DNA of 64,000 bases from Nitrospirota bacterium (GTDB lineage: Bacteria > UBA2233): NCBI GenBank assembly GCA_011620345.1, contig WOZJ01000057.1, positions 1 through 64,000 on the forward strand, in the 5' to 3' direction. Under the pieces are notes generated by a model. It made no database searches and was not told the origin of the DNA. It worked only from the letters and a program-made list of their open reading frames with translations. The position numbers and the translations under genes are program-made. Positions within the stretch are counted from its first letter, which is position 1. Each line of letters begins with the position of its first letter. Shown piece by piece: positions 519 through 8,354 of this stretch.

Positions 519-812
519 ATGGAAGGCGAACAAAGGACGTTAACCCTACAATCCCTTCTTTCTTTCGAGCGCATGCTTACCCCTTTAATCATTCGCGGCA
601 TTTACATTGTCGGCGTGGTTCTTTGCATTTTCGGCGGTTTAAGCGCCATGTTTAGGTTTGGTTTTTTCGAAGGTTCAATAGTAGGACTCTTAACGGCTAT
701 TCTCGGGGTTTTTCTTGTCCGCATCGTTTGCGAGGGGCTGATTGTGGCCTTTCGGATTAACGAGACGCTCTCGGACATCAAGACCCTATTGCAAAAGAAG
801 GCTCTGTCTTGA
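519..812 (+). CDS. DUF4282 small membrane protein
   Basis: A 97-residue protein with two hydrophobic segments (about residues 23-43 and 48-70) separated by a short glycine-rich turn. The C-terminus carries the pattern VRIVCEGLIVAFRINETL, which is how DUF4282 proteins end (arginine, cysteine, glutamate in the second helix, then FRINE). The N-terminal LLSFERMLTP also fits the family. Its function is unknown; it is probably an inner-membrane protein with both ends in the cytosol. It opens a group of envelope proteins that runs to 5877, which also includes another domain-of-unknown-function membrane protein, DUF4870. ATG 573 is an alternative start, but the residues before it fit the family. Confidence 0.7.
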   Translation: MEGEQRTLTLQSLLSFERMLTPLIIRGIYIVGVVLCIFGGLSAMFRFGFFEGSIVGLLTAILGVFLVRIVCEGLIVAFRINETLSDIKTLLQKKALS

Positions 813-849
813 GATTCTGCCTGAACAACCTTTTGCTTAGCCGTGAAGC

Positions 850-1122
850 ATGAGGAGCATCCTGCATCAACACGGCCCAGCTTCACGCTTTTCTGGATGC
901 CTTCAGGGCGGGGCGGGTAGCCAAGGCCAGGATCCCAAGGTTATGGAAGCAGGAAAGAGCTATACGTTTACGGTTCCAATGGCCGGTCAAGCGCTTTTTA
1001 AAGCTCTCGATATAGGCCCTGAATCCGTATGGATCAAGGTTGACGGAGGCACGCAGCTCCCACCGAATACCTGGGTGAACTTAAAGCATATCGTTTTTAT
1101 CCAACCCGTTGCCCAGCAGTGA
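850..1122 (+). CDS. Small hypothetical protein
   Basis: I do not recognise this protein. The frame is open for 90 codons, but the first 31 residues look random and the likely start is the ATG at 943, giving 59 residues beginning MEAGKSYTFTVPMAG. That part looks like a compact beta-rich domain (alternating hydrophobics in YTFTV, VWIKVDGG, IVFIQPV) with no signal peptide or membrane segment. No strong Shine-Dalgarno sequence precedes either start. It sits between the DUF4282 gene and the OmpA lipoprotein gene on the same strand. Confidence 0.45.
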   Translation: MRSILHQHGPASRFSGCLQGGAGSQGQDPKVMEAGKSYTFTVPMAGQALFKALDIGPESVWIKVDGGTQLPPNTWVNLKHIVFIQPVAQQ

Positions 1123-1187
1123 TTTTTGATTCTGCATGCAAAATGTCTTAGTTTTTATAGGCCTACAAACAAAAGCTGGTGCTTTGC

Positions 1188-2753
1188 ATGAAATTGCGTG
1201 AGATCAGGAAAACGTCTGGACATTCTCCTTGGCGAAGGCTGACAGCCTTTTTCAGCATCATCTCCATTTTCCTTTCAGGCTGTGCAAGCCTTGATGAAAT
1301 GGGCAGCAAAGAAAAAATAGGGACAGGGATTGGCTCGGTGCTCGGCGGTACGATAGGGGCCGTTGTGGGGAAGCAGGCCGGTAAAGATGACAAGTGGACG
1401 GTTGTCGGGGGTGTAACGGGCGCGCTTCTTGGTGGCGTGATCGGGAACCGCATCGGACATGCCTTCGATGAGCGTGATAAGCGTATCAAAGAAGCTGCCA
1501 AGGCCGAAAAGCTGAAAGTCGAGACGGAAGTCGTTGCCCTGCCGGCGGCTAAGGAAGGGCCACAAGCTGAAAAGCCCGAGCCTCAAGATCAAAAAGGGCT
1601 TCAGAAGCGCGGAGTCTATGCGCTTACCATCTCCGAGATCGAGCAGTTCCCCGTGGGTTCAGCCACCCTTACCCCGAATGCAAGGCGGTTTTTTGAGACG
1701 ACTGCCGAGACTTACAAGAAAGATGGTTACCGCAACATCCTTATCGTAGGCCATACGGATTCTACGGGCGATCCAGCCTTTAACCAAAGGCTTTCCGAGG
1801 CGCGTGCGAGAACCGTCGCCCAAATCTTCGTTGCTCACGGGTTTCCGGCAAATAGGGCCTTCTACCAAGGAGCCGGTGCTTCAGAGCCCGTGGCCAGCAA
1901 CGCCTCGGCGGAAGGCAGGGCAAAGAACCGGCGTGTGGAAGTGGTAGATGCGGAAACAACCGAGGGCCTGATCGCCTACAAGCAGTCCCAGGTAGCAAAA
2001 ACCAAAGAAGTTCACGCAAAAGACGTGAAGAAGGTGCCCTCAAGGAAGCCAGAAGTTGCCAAACGTGCTCCTTCACCCAAGGGAAAGCCTGAGCCGTCAA
2101 TAAAGGCGCCGAAGGTTGCAGGAATTGATTTTGGGGGCGTATCGATAAAAAAAGACCCTTGGCCTCCTGTTGCTAACGGGGTGATCATGCCGAACCCGCC
2201 ATGGAACCGCACTCTTTTAGGCAGCGTTATTCCCGCTGCCAGGGCAAGCGAGCCTGTACCTGACTTTTTTTCTGACTTTGTTCCTGAAGCCGGGGCTATC
2301 AAGAGCATGAGTGGCAAGGATATGGCCAAGCCAAGCGACCATTTGCCCGGTTATTATAGCCAGCCCCTTTACGGAAGGGCTGGTACTCACTTCGTTTACT
2401 TCAAGCCCGTATCGCTCCTTAAGGATGGCACTCCCGCCCGGGTGAGCGAGTTGGGGGTTATCCTAAATTACGACTTCAAGAAGAATCAAAACCCTAACTT
2501 CATTTTAGGCGGAAGCGTCATTACCTACCCGATGGAGGACGGCGTCCTTTACCGCTGGAAGGCATCGAGCAACGCTCAAGGCATTCTAGGGGCCGACATT
2601 CGCCTTCCTGTCTACTCCGAAGGAGAGCTCAAAAACAAAGACTTTATTCAGGCTTACGGAAAGCTTTACTATATCCGTAACGGTGAGGCCTACGTCGAGC
2701 GGATCGACCCGCAGGTTAAGGTTCTGCATGTTTCCATTGACTGGGGGATTTAG
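1188..2753 (+). CDS. OmpA-family lipoprotein with glycine zipper and novel C-terminal domain
   Basis: Predicted outer-membrane lipoprotein. A signal peptide ends in the lipobox LSGC (Cys near residue 32). Next come a glycine-zipper segment (about residues 45-95, GxxxG spacing) and a charged linker. An OmpA-like peptidoglycan-binding domain follows (about 145-255), with VGHTDSTG, LSEARA and the closing NRRVEV pattern. After a Lys/Pro-rich spacer there is an unrecognised region of about 250 residues, aromatic-rich and beta-like at its end (GRAGTHFVYFKPV, VLHVSIDWGI). I chose ATG 1188 because the longer frame adds only three residues from a GTG. The next gene starts 3 bases after the stop, so translation is probably coupled. 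The family anchors envelope complexes to peptidoglycan; the role here is unknown. Confidence 0.75.
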   Translation: MKLREIRKTSGHSPWRRLTAFFSIISIFLSGCASLDEMGSKEKIGTGIGSVLGGTIGAVVGKQAGKDDKWTVVGGVTGALLGGVIGNRIGHAFDERDKRIKEAAKAEKLKVETEVVALPAAKEGPQAEKPEPQDQKGLQKRGVYALTISEIEQFPVGSATLTPNARRFFETTAETYKKDGYRNILIVGHTDSTGDPAFNQRLSEARARTVAQIFVAHGFPANRAFYQGAGASEPVASNASAEGRAKNRRVEVVDAETTEGLIAYKQSQVAKTKEVHAKDVKKVPSRKPEVAKRAPSPKGKPEPSIKAPKVAGIDFGGVSIKKDPWPPVANGVIMPNPPWNRTLLGSVIPAARASEPVPDFFSDFVPEAGAIKSMSGKDMAKPSDHLPGYYSQPLYGRAGTHFVYFKPVSLLKDGTPARVSELGVILNYDFKKNQNPNFILGGSVITYPMEDGVLYRWKASSNAQGILGADIRLPVYSEGELKNKDFIQAYGKLYYIRNGEAYVERIDPQVKVLHVSIDWGI

Positions 2754-2756
2754 ATA

Positions 2757-4538
2757 ATGGGCAAAATGCAGCTTTTTGAGTGGATTTCTTGGCGTCTTTT
2801 TTTGATTAAGATGGCCTTGGCAAAAATATTTAAGTTTAAGAGCCAGGCAAAGAAGGAGTTCCAATCATTAGGCCCAAACAGCCTTAAAAAGGGAGACCGG
2901 ACGGAGTACGAAGAAACAATAATCCGTAGCTTCGGTGAATTCTCTAAGAACGTTGATCAAACAACCTTTTCAAGGTTGGATTCCTATTTTAGTTTTATGA
3001 TTTTCGGCATTATTTTGATTATTGTAGGACTAATTTCTTCGGGGCCTTGGGGGGCTCGTCTACTCTGGCTTGGCGGATCTGTAGTCTTTGGGGCCCTTTC
3101 CGGTTTTATTTATGACGGGCTAAACAAACCGGCCAATTTTATCGTTAAAGAGGATGAGTATAAAAAGTGCAAACGTCTTCTCGAGTTTGTGGGCGAGAGT
3201 GCCAGGAAACCCCTATCGACAGGGATGATACTTCTTATTTTGCTTATGGTTTTTATCGATGCCGCCATGATAAGCATCGTGGCCATGGACTACGTCGCCG
3301 ACCTGCCCAGAAAATACGCACTATGGGGAGGTTTAGGCGTCGGGTTTATTGTCGCTATTATGCTCTTTTTCTTTACGCATGAGGCAGGAAAAGCCCTTTA
3401 TAGAGATACGAAGCGTAAAGAGCTTCAAGATGAGAGGCATCAAGATAAAGATAGGTTTAGCAAGACGTTAGATGAGCTTGGATATCGACCTTCTTTAGCG
3501 CCTCATTTCTTTTTGCACCCAAAACGCTATCTTTGGATGTGCGTTACTCTGATTATGATTGCTGGCCTAGCCTATGCCGCTTATGGTGCCCGCTACAACA
3601 CTCAAATGGATATGATCCTAAGCCAGACCGAGACAGCACAGCAAACCCTAGGCATAGAAACGGACAACTCGATGCTGCCCCCTGTTGTCACCCAGTCGCA
3701 AAAAGAGGCAGGGAATGAGATAGTGAATGAACATCAAGAGCTTGCCAAGCGTGCAACCCAATTTGCCCTTATTATCCTTACTCTCGTCTTTATCGGCATT
3801 CAAACGGTTGGGATCATGATGGGGTACAATCATGCCTTTTTTGACGATGAAACAGAAGAAGCCTCTGTAAAGGTTAGAGCTTACGAGATGCAAGAGGGGT
3901 TTTCTGGGCAATCCATGGAAATTGTCGCCAGAAAGGCGGCTACATTATTGAGTTACTATAATTCCGCCCTTCAGTCGGCAGCCAACGAATATGGATCTAA
4001 GGAAATAGAAAGTGCTCTTAGGTTACGAAAGTCGTTAGGAGAAAAAGACATAATAGAAATATTCAAGGGGCAGCAAAAGAATGGGCAAGGTAGCCATGAC
4101 CTAGGTCGAAACGACGGGGACATTCCAAGCCTTGCCACAGGGAGCCAGGCCGGCCAACAGGGGCAACCCCTTTTCCATTCAACCCATGATTCGGTCGCTT
4201 CGGCCCCAAGTGGGGGAGATTCTACTGTTTCTGGTGCCGATCAATTGGGAATAACTAGCAATCCAGATACTAATGCCATCACCAACGATACAGGTGTAAG
4301 AGAAACACTAGAAAAACCGTCCATGCCTAGCGAGAAAGGGGAAGACACCTTAAGCCCCAACATTAGACCCCTTAAAAAGAAAAAGAGAGAGCTTGAGAAG
4401 AGAAAGAATGAGCTTGAAGAAAAACTTGACGAGCTTGAAGAGAGCAATTTAGATCCTCAAGAAATCGAGCGGACTAAGGGGGAAATAAAGGGGCTCAAAC
4501 GAGCAATAAGAACAATAGAAGATCAACTTGAAGAATAA
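2757..4538 (+). CDS. Six-TM membrane protein with C-terminal coiled coil
   Basis: An unrecognised 593-residue protein. Six hydrophobic segments lie near residues 78-95, 100-118, 156-178, 188-207, 259-277 and 335-356. Highly charged loops (for example 212-245) separate the pairs, and there is a probable periplasmic loop of about 55 residues between TM5 and TM6. A polar, glycine/serine-rich linker of about 170 residues follows TM6. The last 60 residues (535-593) form a strong Lys/Glu coiled coil with heptad spacing. Codon use is AT-richer than in the housekeeping genes of this window. It lies 3 bases after the OmpA lipoprotein gene and 21 bases before a secreted vWA-like protein, so the three probably act together. 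It does not look like MotA or ExbB, having neither their length nor their topology. Confidence 0.65.
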   Translation: MGKMQLFEWISWRLFLIKMALAKIFKFKSQAKKEFQSLGPNSLKKGDRTEYEETIIRSFGEFSKNVDQTTFSRLDSYFSFMIFGIILIIVGLISSGPWGARLLWLGGSVVFGALSGFIYDGLNKPANFIVKEDEYKKCKRLLEFVGESARKPLSTGMILLILLMVFIDAAMISIVAMDYVADLPRKYALWGGLGVGFIVAIMLFFFTHEAGKALYRDTKRKELQDERHQDKDRFSKTLDELGYRPSLAPHFFLHPKRYLWMCVTLIMIAGLAYAAYGARYNTQMDMILSQTETAQQTLGIETDNSMLPPVVTQSQKEAGNEIVNEHQELAKRATQFALIILTLVFIGIQTVGIMMGYNHAFFDDETEEASVKVRAYEMQEGFSGQSMEIVARKAATLLSYYNSALQSAANEYGSKEIESALRLRKSLGEKDIIEIFKGQQKNGQGSHDLGRNDGDIPSLATGSQAGQQGQPLFHSTHDSVASAPSGGDSTVSGADQLGITSNPDTNAITNDTGVRETLEKPSMPSEKGEDTLSPNIRPLKKKKRELEKRKNELEEKLDELEESNLDPQEIERTKGEIKGLKRAIRTIEDQLEE

Positions 4539-4559
4539 ACAAGGTGGGTTACGGCTTTG

Positions 4560-5402
4560 ATGCATAAAAAAGGCGCTTTTTTTATGGCTCTTTTTGTCTT
4601 CTTTCTTTTTGGGCTTGCTGGAGCGAAGGAGCTTCCGTTTCCTAACAGCTGTTACGAGATGATTGGCGAAACGAAATACCTCAAAGAGCCTAAAGAGGCG
4701 CTTTTCGTGCTGATCGACGAAAGTACCGGGTTTGACGAGAACATCGTGGAGAGGGTTGTCGCGCTCGTAATGAGCTGGCTTGATGACGGCAAGGCAATCG
4801 AGGTTTTTCGGTTCTCGTCTTTTTCTAAAGACCGTTATACCGAGAAAGTCCTTGGCGGTTTCGTAGATCCGGCCCCGACGGATGAGTTTTTGGACAACAT
4901 CAAACGCTCGGAGCGCCTGAAGTTTGACCAATGCCACAAAAAGCAGCTTCTTCTGGCTAAGAATCAGGTAAGGCAAGCAATGCTTGGCATTTTCTCGGGT
5001 TCAAGCCCAGGGATCGGGCACTCTGACATCATTTCCAACCTCAAGACACTGTCGGGCCACATCAAGAGCTCCAATGCGAAATCGAAGAAGTTGCTGATCG
5101 TATCCGACATGCTCGAGAATTCCTCCATCACGAGCTTTTACGCGAGCGGCCATGTGAAGCTAATCGATCCCGATCAAGAAGCTGCTAAAGTCGAAAAGGC
5201 GGGATTTATTGGAGATTTTCACGGAGCCGAGGTTTATATCTTTGGGTTAGGGTATTTTGCAAGGAGCGAACTCTCAAAAAAAGAATCTTACCTAGACCCT
5301 GAAAGGCTTAGGCTTATCAAATCCTTTTGGGCGAATTACATAAAAAAGTCCAATGGCAAGGTTGTCGAGATCGGAACGCCCATGCTATTGGGAAACCTAT
5401 AA
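4560..5402 (+). CDS. Secreted von Willebrand factor A-like protein
   Basis: A 280-residue protein with a clean signal peptide (residues 1-22, ending GLAGA). The core has the strand-helix pattern of a vWA fold: a first strand EALFVLIDESTGFD, a helix with SDIISNLKTL, then a strand KKLLIVSDMLENS and a later strand AEVYIFGLGYF. The metal-site motif is degenerate: the first strand ends D-E-S-T rather than D-x-S-x-S, so ion binding is doubtful. I infer a periplasmic adaptor. ATG 4560 follows AAGGTGGG; a TTG sits directly before it. The gene belongs to the 1188-5402 trio. A coding-like stretch in the +1 frame overlaps its end (see 5353-5487), so its natural C-terminus is uncertain. Confidence 0.6.
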   Translation: MHKKGAFFMALFVFFLFGLAGAKELPFPNSCYEMIGETKYLKEPKEALFVLIDESTGFDENIVERVVALVMSWLDDGKAIEVFRFSSFSKDRYTEKVLGGFVDPAPTDEFLDNIKRSERLKFDQCHKKQLLLAKNQVRQAMLGIFSGSSPGIGHSDIISNLKTLSGHIKSSNAKSKKLLIVSDMLENSSITSFYASGHVKLIDPDQEAAKVEKAGFIGDFHGAEVYIFGLGYFARSELSKKESYLDPERLRLIKSFWANYIKKSNGKVVEIGTPMLLGNL

Positions 5403-5487
5403 ACCCTTTCAAGGAGCCGAGGGCAGGAACTATCCAGAGCTTAAAGCGAACGAGGCATACCAAAGGCTCATGAGCCAAACCGCTTGA
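5353..5487 (+). CDS. Small overlapping ORF or frameshifted tail of the vWA-like gene
   Basis: In the +1 frame an ATG at 5353 opens 44 codons to a TGA at 5485. The first 50 bases overlap the end of the vWA-like gene. The peptide contains CYWETYKPFQGAEGRNYPEL and ends AYQRLMSQTA, which has ordinary protein composition. No clear ribosome site precedes the ATG. It could be a small translationally coupled gene, the real C-terminus of the upstream gene after a frameshift, or chance. Confidence 0.3.
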   Translation: MARLSRSERPCYWETYKPFQGAEGRNYPELKANEAYQRLMSQTA

Positions 5488-5508
5488 AGCAAAGGAGCAA
5501 GAAAGGCA

Positions 5509-5877
5509 ATGACAATCCCACCTGAACGAGGAAGGCCAAGGGCTCAAGACATCCAGACCTGGGCGATGTGGATTCATTTCTCGCAGTTTGCCGGCATCTT
5601 TATCCCGATTGCCGGCCTGATCGTACCCGTTATTCTTTGGCAATCAAAAAGAGGCGAGTTTCCAGATCTCGACCCGCACGGCAAGGCCGTGACGAACTGG
5701 GTACTAAGCCTTGTGGTGTATGTGTTCGTTTGTCTTATCCTGTCGTTTGGCCTGATCGGCATCCCTTTGCTCCTTGCGCTTGGCATCGTCGGCGTCGTTT
5801 TCCCCGTGATCGGCGGGATCAAGGCCAACATGGGGGAAGCCTGGAAATACCCGCTTGCCATCCCGTTCCTAAAATGA
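5509..5877 (+). CDS. DUF4870 membrane protein
   Basis: A 122-residue protein with three hydrophobic segments (about residues 25-46, 60-82 and 85-107). The family pattern of DUF4870 is present: WAMWIHFSQFAG, a helix ending in a WQSKR-type basic turn, then DPHGKAVTNWVLS, where the HGK-A-x-N signature is typical. The function of the family is not established; members are small inner-membrane proteins. The start has AGGAGCAAGAAAGGCA upstream. It closes the run of envelope genes that begins at 519, although the 106-base gap before it means it may have its own transcript. Confidence 0.75.
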   Translation: MTIPPERGRPRAQDIQTWAMWIHFSQFAGIFIPIAGLIVPVILWQSKRGEFPDLDPHGKAVTNWVLSLVVYVFVCLILSFGLIGIPLLLALGIVGVVFPVIGGIKANMGEAWKYPLAIPFLK

Positions 5878-6068: not shown

Positions 6069-6116
6069 AATTAATCATACTGGAGAAGGGTGAGAAAGGA
6101 TAAAAAGGGGGCGACT

Positions 6117-7358
6117 ATGCATGAAGGCAGCACACTCCTTGGGCGTTTCTTCAAGGTCCGAGAGGCCACCCAAAGTCTGGTTCAACCACTTGCTCTAGAA
6201 GACATGGTCGTCCAAACCATGGCCGCTGTCAGCCCTCCCAAATGGCACCTAGCGCATACGACGTGGTTTTTTGAGACGTTTATCCTGCAGCAAAAAAAGG
6301 GGTACAGGCTTTTTGAGCCTGAGTTCCGCTACCTCTTTAATTCCTACTACGAGGGCGTTGGCCCCTATTTCCCTAAAAACAAACGGGGGACGCTCTCTAG
6401 GCCCTTGGTTTCCGAGGTGATGGCCTACCGGGCGTACGTCGAGGATGCAATCAAGCGCTTCGCGGGCGAAGAGGATGCTGCGAGTTTAGAGTTGGGAATT
6501 CAGCATGAGCAGCAGCACCAGGAACTCTTGCTGACCGACATCCTTCACATTTTTTCCAAAAACCCCCTCACCCCTGTATATAAGGAAGCTTGCCTGCCGC
6601 GAGCCAACGAGCCGCCGCTTCTTTCGATGCTCCCCTTCGAGGGCGGCGTTCGCAGCGTGGGGTATGCCGGTAAGGGGTTTGCCTTCGATAATGAGCAGCC
6701 TTGCCACGAGGTGCTTCTTGCCCCTTACAGGCTTTCGAGCCGGCTGGTGAGTGCGGGCGAGTATCTGGCCTTTATGGAGGACGGAGCCTACGACGACCCG
6801 CTCTTATGGCTCTCGGACGGCTGGGACTGGCTCAAGAAAACGGGGGTGCGGGCGCCTTTATACTGGGCACGCCTCCCTGAGGGCGGTTATGAGGTCATGA
6901 CACTGCATGGAAGGGTTCAGTTGGATCTTCATCGGCCCGTTTGCCATGTGAACTACTACGAGGCCGACGCGTTCGCTAGGTGGATGGGTAAGCGTTTGCC
7001 GACGGAGTTTGAGTGGGAAGTGGCGGCGGCCGAGCTCCATCCATCGGGCCATTTCATGGAAGAGGGGGTTTACGTCCCTTTCGCCTCTGCCGCCTCGAAA
7101 GAGGAGCTTGGCCAGGCCTTCGGGGATTGTTGGGAATGGACCTCTAGCCCTTATGTTCCATACCCCCGCTTTCGTCCGTTCTCTGGAGCGGCTGGCGAGT
7201 ACAACGGCAAGTTTATGGTGAACCAGCTTGTCCTGAAAGGGGGTTCTCTGGGGACGCCAAAGGACCATATCAGGGCGAGCTATCGCAACTTTTTCCCGGC
7301 GGAAACGTGCTGGCAGTTCTCGGGGATCCGCCTGGCGGATGAGGGTGCTGCATCTTAG
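6117..7358 (+). CDS. egtB: Ergothioneine synthase EgtB (Fe(II) sulfoxide synthase)
   Basis: Non-haem iron enzyme that joins hercynine to a thiol donor (gamma-glutamylcysteine or cysteine) with O2, giving the sulfoxide precursor of ergothioneine. The N-terminal DinB-like half carries the iron histidines in PPKWHLAHTTWFFETF and in GIQHEQQHQELLL. The C-terminal half is the sulfatase-modifying-factor (FGE) fold, ending LKGGS, IRASYRNFF and GIRLA. I chose ATG 6117, which follows AAAAAGGGGG, over an upstream GTG at 6090. egtD lies 36 bases downstream, and the pair makes a compact pathway. No egtC amidohydrolase or egtE lyase is present, so the thiol donor and the final C-S cleavage enzyme are not shown here. 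Confidence 0.92.
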   Translation: MHEGSTLLGRFFKVREATQSLVQPLALEDMVVQTMAAVSPPKWHLAHTTWFFETFILQQKKGYRLFEPEFRYLFNSYYEGVGPYFPKNKRGTLSRPLVSEVMAYRAYVEDAIKRFAGEEDAASLELGIQHEQQHQELLLTDILHIFSKNPLTPVYKEACLPRANEPPLLSMLPFEGGVRSVGYAGKGFAFDNEQPCHEVLLAPYRLSSRLVSAGEYLAFMEDGAYDDPLLWLSDGWDWLKKTGVRAPLYWARLPEGGYEVMTLHGRVQLDLHRPVCHVNYYEADAFARWMGKRLPTEFEWEVAAAELHPSGHFMEEGVYVPFASAASKEELGQAFGDCWEWTSSPYVPYPRFRPFSGAAGEYNGKFMVNQLVLKGGSLGTPKDHIRASYRNFFPAETCWQFSGIRLADEGAAS

Positions 7359-7394
7359 GTTGAAGTCAACCCCTAAAAGCAAGGAGGTTGTATC

Positions 7395-8354
7395 GTGCCG
7401 GAGAGGTTGAAGGCTGTCCGCTTCCCCGAGGTTGCATCCACCGGAGCGCCCTTCAAAGAGGACGTAGTTCGCGGTCTTTTGGCCTCCCCTAAGTCGATCT
7501 CTTGCAAGTGGCTATACGATGAAGAAGGCTCTCGGCTGTTTGAAGAAATTTGCAAGCTGCCCGAGTATTACCTGACCAGGACCGAAAACGAGCTCCTTTG
7601 GTCTATCGGGAAGGAAAGAAGCCCCCTGGCCGGAACGATCATCGAGTACGGGAGCGGGCACAGTGAAAAAGTGCGGGCCCTTTTAGAAGGCGTTCAGGCC
7701 TACGTTGCCATCGATATCGCAAGTGTCGCCCTGGAAAGGGCAGCGCTTGCGCTTTCCCAAGATTACCCAGACCTAAAGGTCCTTGCGCTTGTGGCCGATA
7801 TCACCAAGCCCTTGCCCCTGCCTTCTTTGTTGAACTCCTTCCCAAGGCCATGGGTAGCCTTTTATGCGGGCTCGAGCATCGGCAACTTTTCAAACGAGCA
7901 GGCACGCTTTTTATTGGGTCTGATAAGAGAGAATCTTGGTCCAGGCGATGGGCTCTTGATAGGAATCGACCTCCAAAAGCCTATCTCGATCCTAGAGCGG
8001 GCCTACGATGACGCGAAAGGCTTGACGGCTCGTTTCAACAAAAACCTTCTCAGTCGTATCGCTAAGGCTTTTGGGATTGATATTTCCCTCGAGAGCTTCA
8101 AGCACGTGGCCCGTTACAACGCGACGGAAGGTCGCATGGAGCTGTTCCTTGAATGCCTCGAGGATCAAACCTGGAAGCTTGGCCCTGGTGTTTTGGTCAA
8201 CCTTCAAAAAGGGGAAATGATCCATACGGAAAATTCCTACAAATATACCCTGAGGGGTTTTAGGGCACTACTTGAAAGCTCGGGGTTCCGCCCTCAAAAG
8301 ACATGGACCGACTCCAAAGAGCTCTTTGCCGTGCTCTATGCCGAAGTTCGCTGA
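7395..8354 (+). CDS. egtD: L-histidine N-alpha-methyltransferase EgtD
   Basis: SAM-dependent enzyme that trimethylates the alpha-amino group of histidine to hercynine, the first step of ergothioneine synthesis. At 319 residues it is full length. Family landmarks are the N-terminal CKWLYDEEGSRLFEEIC, the LPEYYLTRTE segment that contacts the substrate, the SAM-binding IIEYGSGHSEKVR, and FYAGSSIGNFSNEQA. The GTG start at 7395 has a strong AAGGAGG seven bases upstream. It is co-transcribed with egtB. The pairing makes the assignment secure against other DUF2260-type methyltransferases. Confidence 0.93.
   Translation: MPERLKAVRFPEVASTGAPFKEDVVRGLLASPKSISCKWLYDEEGSRLFEEICKLPEYYLTRTENELLWSIGKERSPLAGTIIEYGSGHSEKVRALLEGVQAYVAIDIASVALERAALALSQDYPDLKVLALVADITKPLPLPSLLNSFPRPWVAFYAGSSIGNFSNEQARFLLGLIRENLGPGDGLLIGIDLQKPISILERAYDDAKGLTARFNKNLLSRIAKAFGIDISLESFKHVARYNATEGRMELFLECLEDQTWKLGPGVLVNLQKGEMIHTENSYKYTLRGFRALLESSGFRPQKTWTDSKELFAVLYAEVR

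Follow-up and report, generated by a model that had tools for sequence, protein, structure and literature searches.

A recurrent, horizontally moving three-gene envelope module encoding an OmpA lipoprotein, an inner-membrane protein and a secreted vWA-fold protein

We analyzed a 64,000-nucleotide stretch of DNA (hereafter the window) that forms the start of a contig of a 1.8-Mb Nitrospirota genome (assembly GCA_011620345.1, contig WOZJ01000057.1), with a single congener (G001, locus L003) among the genomes searched. Three genes on one strand encode an OmpA-family lipoprotein (P0002), an inner-membrane protein (P0003) and a secreted protein with a vWA fold (P0004), referred to below as the trio. 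The open reading frames and short intergenic gaps described in the first-pass annotation are real (Table 1). In composition, the trio combines two known domain types with one unnamed membrane family. P0003 and P0004 have no match above any cut-off in Pfam, NCBIfam, PHROG and PADLOC, as the statement that the large proteins fit no known family had anticipated; PDB sequence searches with the vWA and transmembrane (TM) profiles matched neither protein, and a one-by-one Pfam scan of 46 and 49 relatives named little except the tails. Two of the three trio proteins thus lack a family name, and annotation pipelines therefore miss the trio. Among open-access papers we found none that describes it, only background on vWA, LemA and anchor proteins; as far as this literature goes, the trio is an undescribed system.

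Table 1. Coordinates of the trio and of adjacent features in the window (L003 is the congener locus)
Feature	Coordinates	Strand	Basis or remark
DUF4282 membrane protein	519..812	+	Pfam 7.5e-13; judged incidental
Small lipoprotein gene remnant	850..1122	+	Congener copy L003:11591-11872 has signal peptide
Trio, three same-strand ORFs	1188-2753, 2757-4538, 4557/4560-5402	+	Gaps of 3 and 18-21 bases
P0002, OmpA-family outer-membrane-type lipoprotein, 521 aa	1188..2753	+	Pfam OmpA and Gly-zipper
OmpA-like peptidoglycan-binding domain of P0002 (residues 154-248)	1647..1931	+	Pfam PF00691
P0003, inner-membrane protein, 593 aa	2757..4538	+	Six hydrophobic segments, C-terminal coiled coil
P0004, secreted vWA-fold protein, 281 aa	4557..5402 (TTG 4557 or ATG 4560 start)	+	AlphaFold, Foldseek, VIA-align, conservation
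lemA relic (LemA codons ~102-122)	5416..5482	+	tblastn 86% over 21 aa, blastn 91% over 67 bp to L003:16098-16164
DUF4870 membrane protein	5509..5877	+	Pfam 2.1e-29

The assignment of P0002 as an OmpA lipoprotein is borne out by a lipobox (LSGC, with Ala at position +2), a glycine zipper (residues 48-96) and the OmpA domain (Pfam E-value 3.7e-20). LSGC followed by Ala is an outer-membrane sorting pattern under the established Lol rules. The PF00691 domain is present in all 45 relatives, and the residues for peptidoglycan contact are well conserved in their alignment (D191 in 96%, R206 in 100%); the C-terminal Cys pair of OmpA is lost in the window copy. A conserved, unnamed periplasmic domain occupies the C-terminal part of P0002 (about residues 313-521). 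It is the only part of the protein kept in two loci without the OmpA domain (L055 and L064), and therefore likely mediates contact with the membrane and vWA proteins.

P0003 of the window has six TM segments, a predicted periplasmic helical hairpin (residues ~282-334) and a cytosolic tail with a coiled coil (residues 536-592). The description "six-TM coiled-coil protein" is correct for this copy and fails as a family trait: five TM segments are found in 56 of 62 relatives, and the tails vary, with zinc ribbons in two Campylobacterota. The extra N-terminal TM segment and the coiled coil of the window copy are local to its clade and were rejected as defining features. Loop charge makes the five-TM relatives N-out/C-in, and some 55-70 periplasmic residues separate their last two TM segments. 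Mean identity within the family is 23%, and the conserved positions are D/E168, H208, D239, R244, R279 and Q349 (the acid at 168 and R279 in 49 of 49 relatives, H208 in 48 of 49). The structural model is of moderate confidence (pLDDT 73.7, pTM 0.58); it has no Foldseek match at E<=0.001, and the VIA-align rows contain generic long helices only. Because of this moderate confidence, we do not claim a new fold. As a MotA/TolQ/ExbB motor protein, ZorA included, P0003 was rejected: it has no match to PF01618 at E<=1, and its hhalign comparison with seven ExbB/TolQ-type proteins of trio-bearing genomes yielded a probability of 0.3%. True members of that family are readily found in the same genomes, with scores up to 138 bits.

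Two loci carry altered membrane-protein genes. In the congener, an in-frame stop lies just before the coiled coil, whose codons resume in frame past it (L003:14661-14906), which may be an assembly error or a real truncation. At L023:8417-8962, the OmpA N-terminus is fused in frame to the membrane-protein C-terminus, apparently by an internal deletion in the operon.

P0004 has a signal-peptide-like N-terminus, and its vWA fold is confirmed by an AlphaFold model (pLDDT 89.5), by Foldseek, with the BatA-type vWA protein 4jdu as the best match (E-value 2.5e-5, probability 1.00), and by VIA-align (Z up to 12.6 over about 160-185 residues), in agreement with its earlier designation as secreted and vWA-like. 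The MIDAS-like positions D54, S/T56, S/T156 and D184, together with E187, are conserved in all 46 relatives, suggesting that P0004 is likely to have a metal-dependent binding site. Four of the five MIDAS positions are retained, the second Ser of the DxSxS motif (position 58) being variable. Cys32 and Cys126 form an almost invariant pair among the 46 relatives.

DUF4282 had been listed as an associated neighbor; the domain is real, but the segment that holds it (55-888) is absent from the congener, as seen from a blastn gap and the lack of such an ORF in L003, and DUF4282 was therefore rejected as a module member. In the small lipoprotein gene that follows, the signal sequence is gone, the DNA upstream of base 889 having been replaced. 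DUF4870 adjoins the trio in the congener and in one proteobacterial locus (L042), and is at most an accessory. In the congener, an intact lemA directly follows the vWA gene (L003:15795-16625), whereas two deletions in the window have left only 67 bases of it, and no LemA was found elsewhere in the window genome (G000). Since the window copy of the trio has lost lemA as well as the Cys pair at the OmpA C-terminus, it may be drifting. The window also contains matches to the FGE-sulfatase/DinB_2 and histidine-specific methyltransferase families (6090-8354; an ergothioneine EgtB/EgtD-like pair). Its bases 1-54 correspond to the last part of a congener gene for a [NiFe]-hydrogenase-like large subunit (L003:9133-10854), thus the window starts just downstream of a hydrogenase locus.

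Recurrence of the three genes elsewhere was the first-pass annotation's own test of its proposal, and the trio does recur as a block. By scanning 84,980 species genomes with a seven-sequence subset of vWA queries we obtained 59 loci. On plasmids, tblastn searches recovered the block as annotated genes in Aliarcobacter, Paraburkholderia, Acidiphilium and Pantoea, and as ORFs in Caballeronia and Aeromonas. The total set comprises 66 loci, of which about 54 have complete OmpA, TM and vWA genes in this order on one strand, thus the association is more than chance. The remaining loci are cut by a contig end (4), are fragments (3) or possess TM and vWA but no complete OmpA protein (5); near the TM and vWA genes of L059, L062 and L067 no OmpA gene was detectable. 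The loci belong to α-, β- and γ-proteobacteria, Campylobacterota and an isolated Nitrospirota lineage. An overlap of 4 bases between the TM and vWA genes is usual, and each genome checked has a single copy of the trio.

The three genes are also inherited together: pairwise tree distances of OmpA, TM and vWA correlate with r of 0.76-0.84, compared with a maximum of 0.28 in 1000 permutations. Among 369 γ-proteobacteria, the TM profile was strong in four genomes and vWA was present in all four, which is a weak test, since the TM profile was built from vWA-linked copies. The overall prevalence is low and patchy: 16 of 369 genomes in the γ-proteobacterial class (12 of these 16 with a divergent or weak vWA and without this TM protein), 4 of 190 in the α-proteobacterial class, 4 of 150 in the Campylobacter class, and 4 of 386 across the domain.

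More distant relatives outline a wider family. Weak vWA relatives are paired with an inner-membrane protein in six loci (L112, L113, L116, L118, L119 and L166), and a Glu in a TM segment of the membrane protein is invariant in 9 of 9 aligned sequences. Comparison of the trio and distant-pair profiles gave a probability of 99.5% for vWA and 90.9% for the inner-membrane protein over two TM segments; in a related comparison the inner-membrane profile scored 32.6, against a maximum of 14.5 among 60 decoys. On Rhizobium plasmids and in L117, genes for a membrane coiled-coil protein and an OmpA-domain protein come after the pair, and the four genes of L165 are arranged similarly. A peptidoglycan-binding protein thus accompanies the pair in two separate branches, which supports a function anchored in the wall. 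In a divergent γ-proteobacterial branch, vWA adjoins LPP20 and FlgT genes and lacks the TM protein of the trio; therefore, vWA does not go with this partner everywhere.

The four-gene operon of Rhizobium johnstonii pRL11 (RL_RS31080-31095; L164:7986-12397), a distant cousin of the trio, encodes in order an inner-membrane coiled-coil protein, a vWA protein, a second membrane coiled-coil protein and an OmpA family protein. In an operon of the same kind, the OmpA-domain protein carries a fused staphylococcal-nuclease-like domain (L117:8497-9963). Loci of the branch with LPP20/FlgT-domain genes include L102 (6989-9769) and L103-L110, with BepA-like and TusA-like genes nearby in L102/L105.

The first-pass annotation had noted AT-rich segments and proposed transfer, and both points stand. 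The GC content of the trio is 48.6% (0.486), compared with 56.8% +/- 0.9% (0.568 +/- 0.009) in pieces of the same size from the remaining DNA, and in 45 relatives the trio is on average 2.2 GC points lower than the flanking DNA (Wilcoxon p 0.002). The vWA phylogeny places the window and its congener together with two γ-proteobacterial copies (support 100/97), and the genes beside the trio mostly differ from site to site. LemA is the commonest of the 114 neighbors and the sole family seen in more than three. PADLOC matched 18 models among these neighbors, each in one neighbor, which argues against a defense island; nothing coherent emerged from PADLOC scans of the trio, the 114 neighbors and the distant pairs, and no relatives of the trio were found in viral contigs or phages. 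The trio is thus a horizontally moving cassette and not a defense island. No Zor-type match (ZorC/ZorD) was found among the 114 neighbors, and none for P0003.

Other assignments to known machines were likewise rejected. As a type VI anchor (TssL/TagL), the OmpA protein scores 79 bits with TIGR03350, below the cut-off of 139.8, and there is no T6SS component among the neighbor families listed. For conjugation or a type IV secretion system, the first 25 neighbor families listed comprise LemA, CAP and housekeeping families only, without mating-pair formation genes, and among the 20 plasmid records that vWA matched, only one was typed conjugative. Family, neighbor and profile tests accordingly failed for MotAB, TolQRA, Zorya and type VI, which had been set aside at the outset, and the neighbors do not point to a conjugation apparatus.

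Taken together, the evidence makes an uncharacterised, conserved and mobile envelope module out of what had been called an envelope-spanning signaling, surface or defense device; the defense part of that proposal is not retained. We tentatively read the trio, at somewhat less than an even chance, as a stand-alone, horizontally acquired trans-envelope complex that would act as a peptidoglycan-anchored tether and transducer with vWA as its adaptor. The envelope-spanning aspect of this reading is drawn from domain anatomy and co-inheritance. The OmpA lipoprotein, as its sequence supports, would grip the peptidoglycan from the outer membrane. The soluble periplasmic vWA protein may serve as the adaptor, its MIDAS-like metal site docking on the C-terminal domain of the lipoprotein and/or on the hairpin that the membrane protein would extend into the periplasm. 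The conserved acidic, His and Arg residues of the inner-membrane protein are predicted to lie within its TM helices or at their ends, and the protein might pass load or signal to exchangeable cytosolic tails (coiled coil, zinc ribbon). The module would thereby tether the envelope and transduce its strain or state, possibly assisted by LemA in some genomes. A broader and rather doubtful proposal is that the inner-membrane protein and the MIDAS-type vWA are central to a class of trans-envelope transducers not described before, in which energy of the membrane or strain of the envelope would drive work or signaling across the wall, its variants using an OmpA lipoprotein (the trio) or an OmpA/MotB-like protein with membrane coiled-coil partners (rhizobia and others).

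Two other readings keep the envelope location and change what the complex does, and we consider each of them unlikely. The trio could be a force machine driven by the proton motive force, in which ions travel along a path made by the TM acid, His and Arg and the outer membrane is pushed or pulled by vWA. A published proposal sees force transducers in vWA proteins that adjoin TolQ-like motors (PMC12204202), and the invariant charged residues in or near the TM helices of P0003 would suit such a role, as would the rhizobial cousins, in which a membrane coiled-coil protein stands beside an OmpA protein whose N-terminal TM segment is MotB-like. However, P0003 itself falls outside the MotA/TolQ/ExbB family, the trio has no tolR/exbD-like gene, and the resemblance of the rhizobial protein to MotA is weak (probability 2%). 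Another possibility, equally improbable, is a passive tether for envelope stability that is expressed under envelope stress and does no signaling, with tails serving for retention or as a scaffold only. An outer-membrane lipoprotein with a peptidoglycan domain, an inner-membrane protein, variable cytosolic tails, and LemA and DUF4870 as neighbors are all compatible with it, but conserved D239/R244 on the cytosolic side and a MIDAS-like adaptor exceed what a passive tether needs.

The remaining readings fare worse. That the trio belongs to a surface structure or to secretion machinery, as an accessory of an adhesin, pilus or two-partner secretion system, is quite improbable: vWA folds are frequent among pilus and adhesin proteins, and FHA/ShlB genes lie downstream in L006, yet no secretion ATPase, usher, secretin or pilin recurs among the neighbor families listed. 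Least credible of all, and in our view very improbable, is a Zorya-like envelope defense against phages or plasmids. The patchy spread, plasmid copies and AT-richness would speak for it, and a peptidoglycan-anchored partner with an inner-membrane coiled-coil protein recalls the ZorAB layout; set against this are the lack of ZorA/MotA homology, of ZorC/ZorD-like effectors and of coherent defense genes, the PADLOC models being scattered singly among neighbors.

Few trans-envelope systems are known, and Tol-Pal, Ton, MotAB, T6SS and Zorya each opened a field. The trio is compact and is found on plasmids and in cultivable Cupriavidus, Paraburkholderia, Herbaspirillum and Methylobacillus; with clear candidate residues at hand, its role is therefore directly testable.

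P0002 shares the lipobox, glycine zipper and OmpA domain with YiaD- and PA1041-type lipoproteins, but scores below their curated equivalog cut-offs (145 vs 175 bits with NF053611 and 118 vs 250 bits with NF053612), and was rejected as a member of either; it also carries an additional C-terminal domain and shares its operon with two partners. P0004 resembles BatA/BatB-type bacterial vWA proteins most closely in fold, but it is soluble and secreted, with no MoxR/Bat operon among the neighbor families tallied. Zorya ZorAB likewise combines a multi-TM inner-membrane protein bearing a cytosolic coiled coil with a peptidoglycan-binding OmpA-domain protein, whereas in the trio the OmpA protein is a lipoprotein with outer-membrane-type sorting, the inner-membrane part is unrelated to ZorA, and ZorC/D are lacking. 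An OmpA-type peptidoglycan anchor within a trans-envelope machine is common to the trio and to Tol-Pal, T6SS TssL/TagL and Tad CpaD, none of whose other components were seen beside the trio. The nearest published idea is the force-transducer proposal for vWA proteins (PMC12204202). No tolQ homolog lies beside the trio vWA gene, PF01618 being absent from the neighbor tally. The vWA protein of the trio has a signal peptide instead of a motor-binding TM helix, and its inner-membrane partner is not TolQ-like, but the two arrangements have in common a periplasmic vWA domain and a multi-TM inner-membrane partner.
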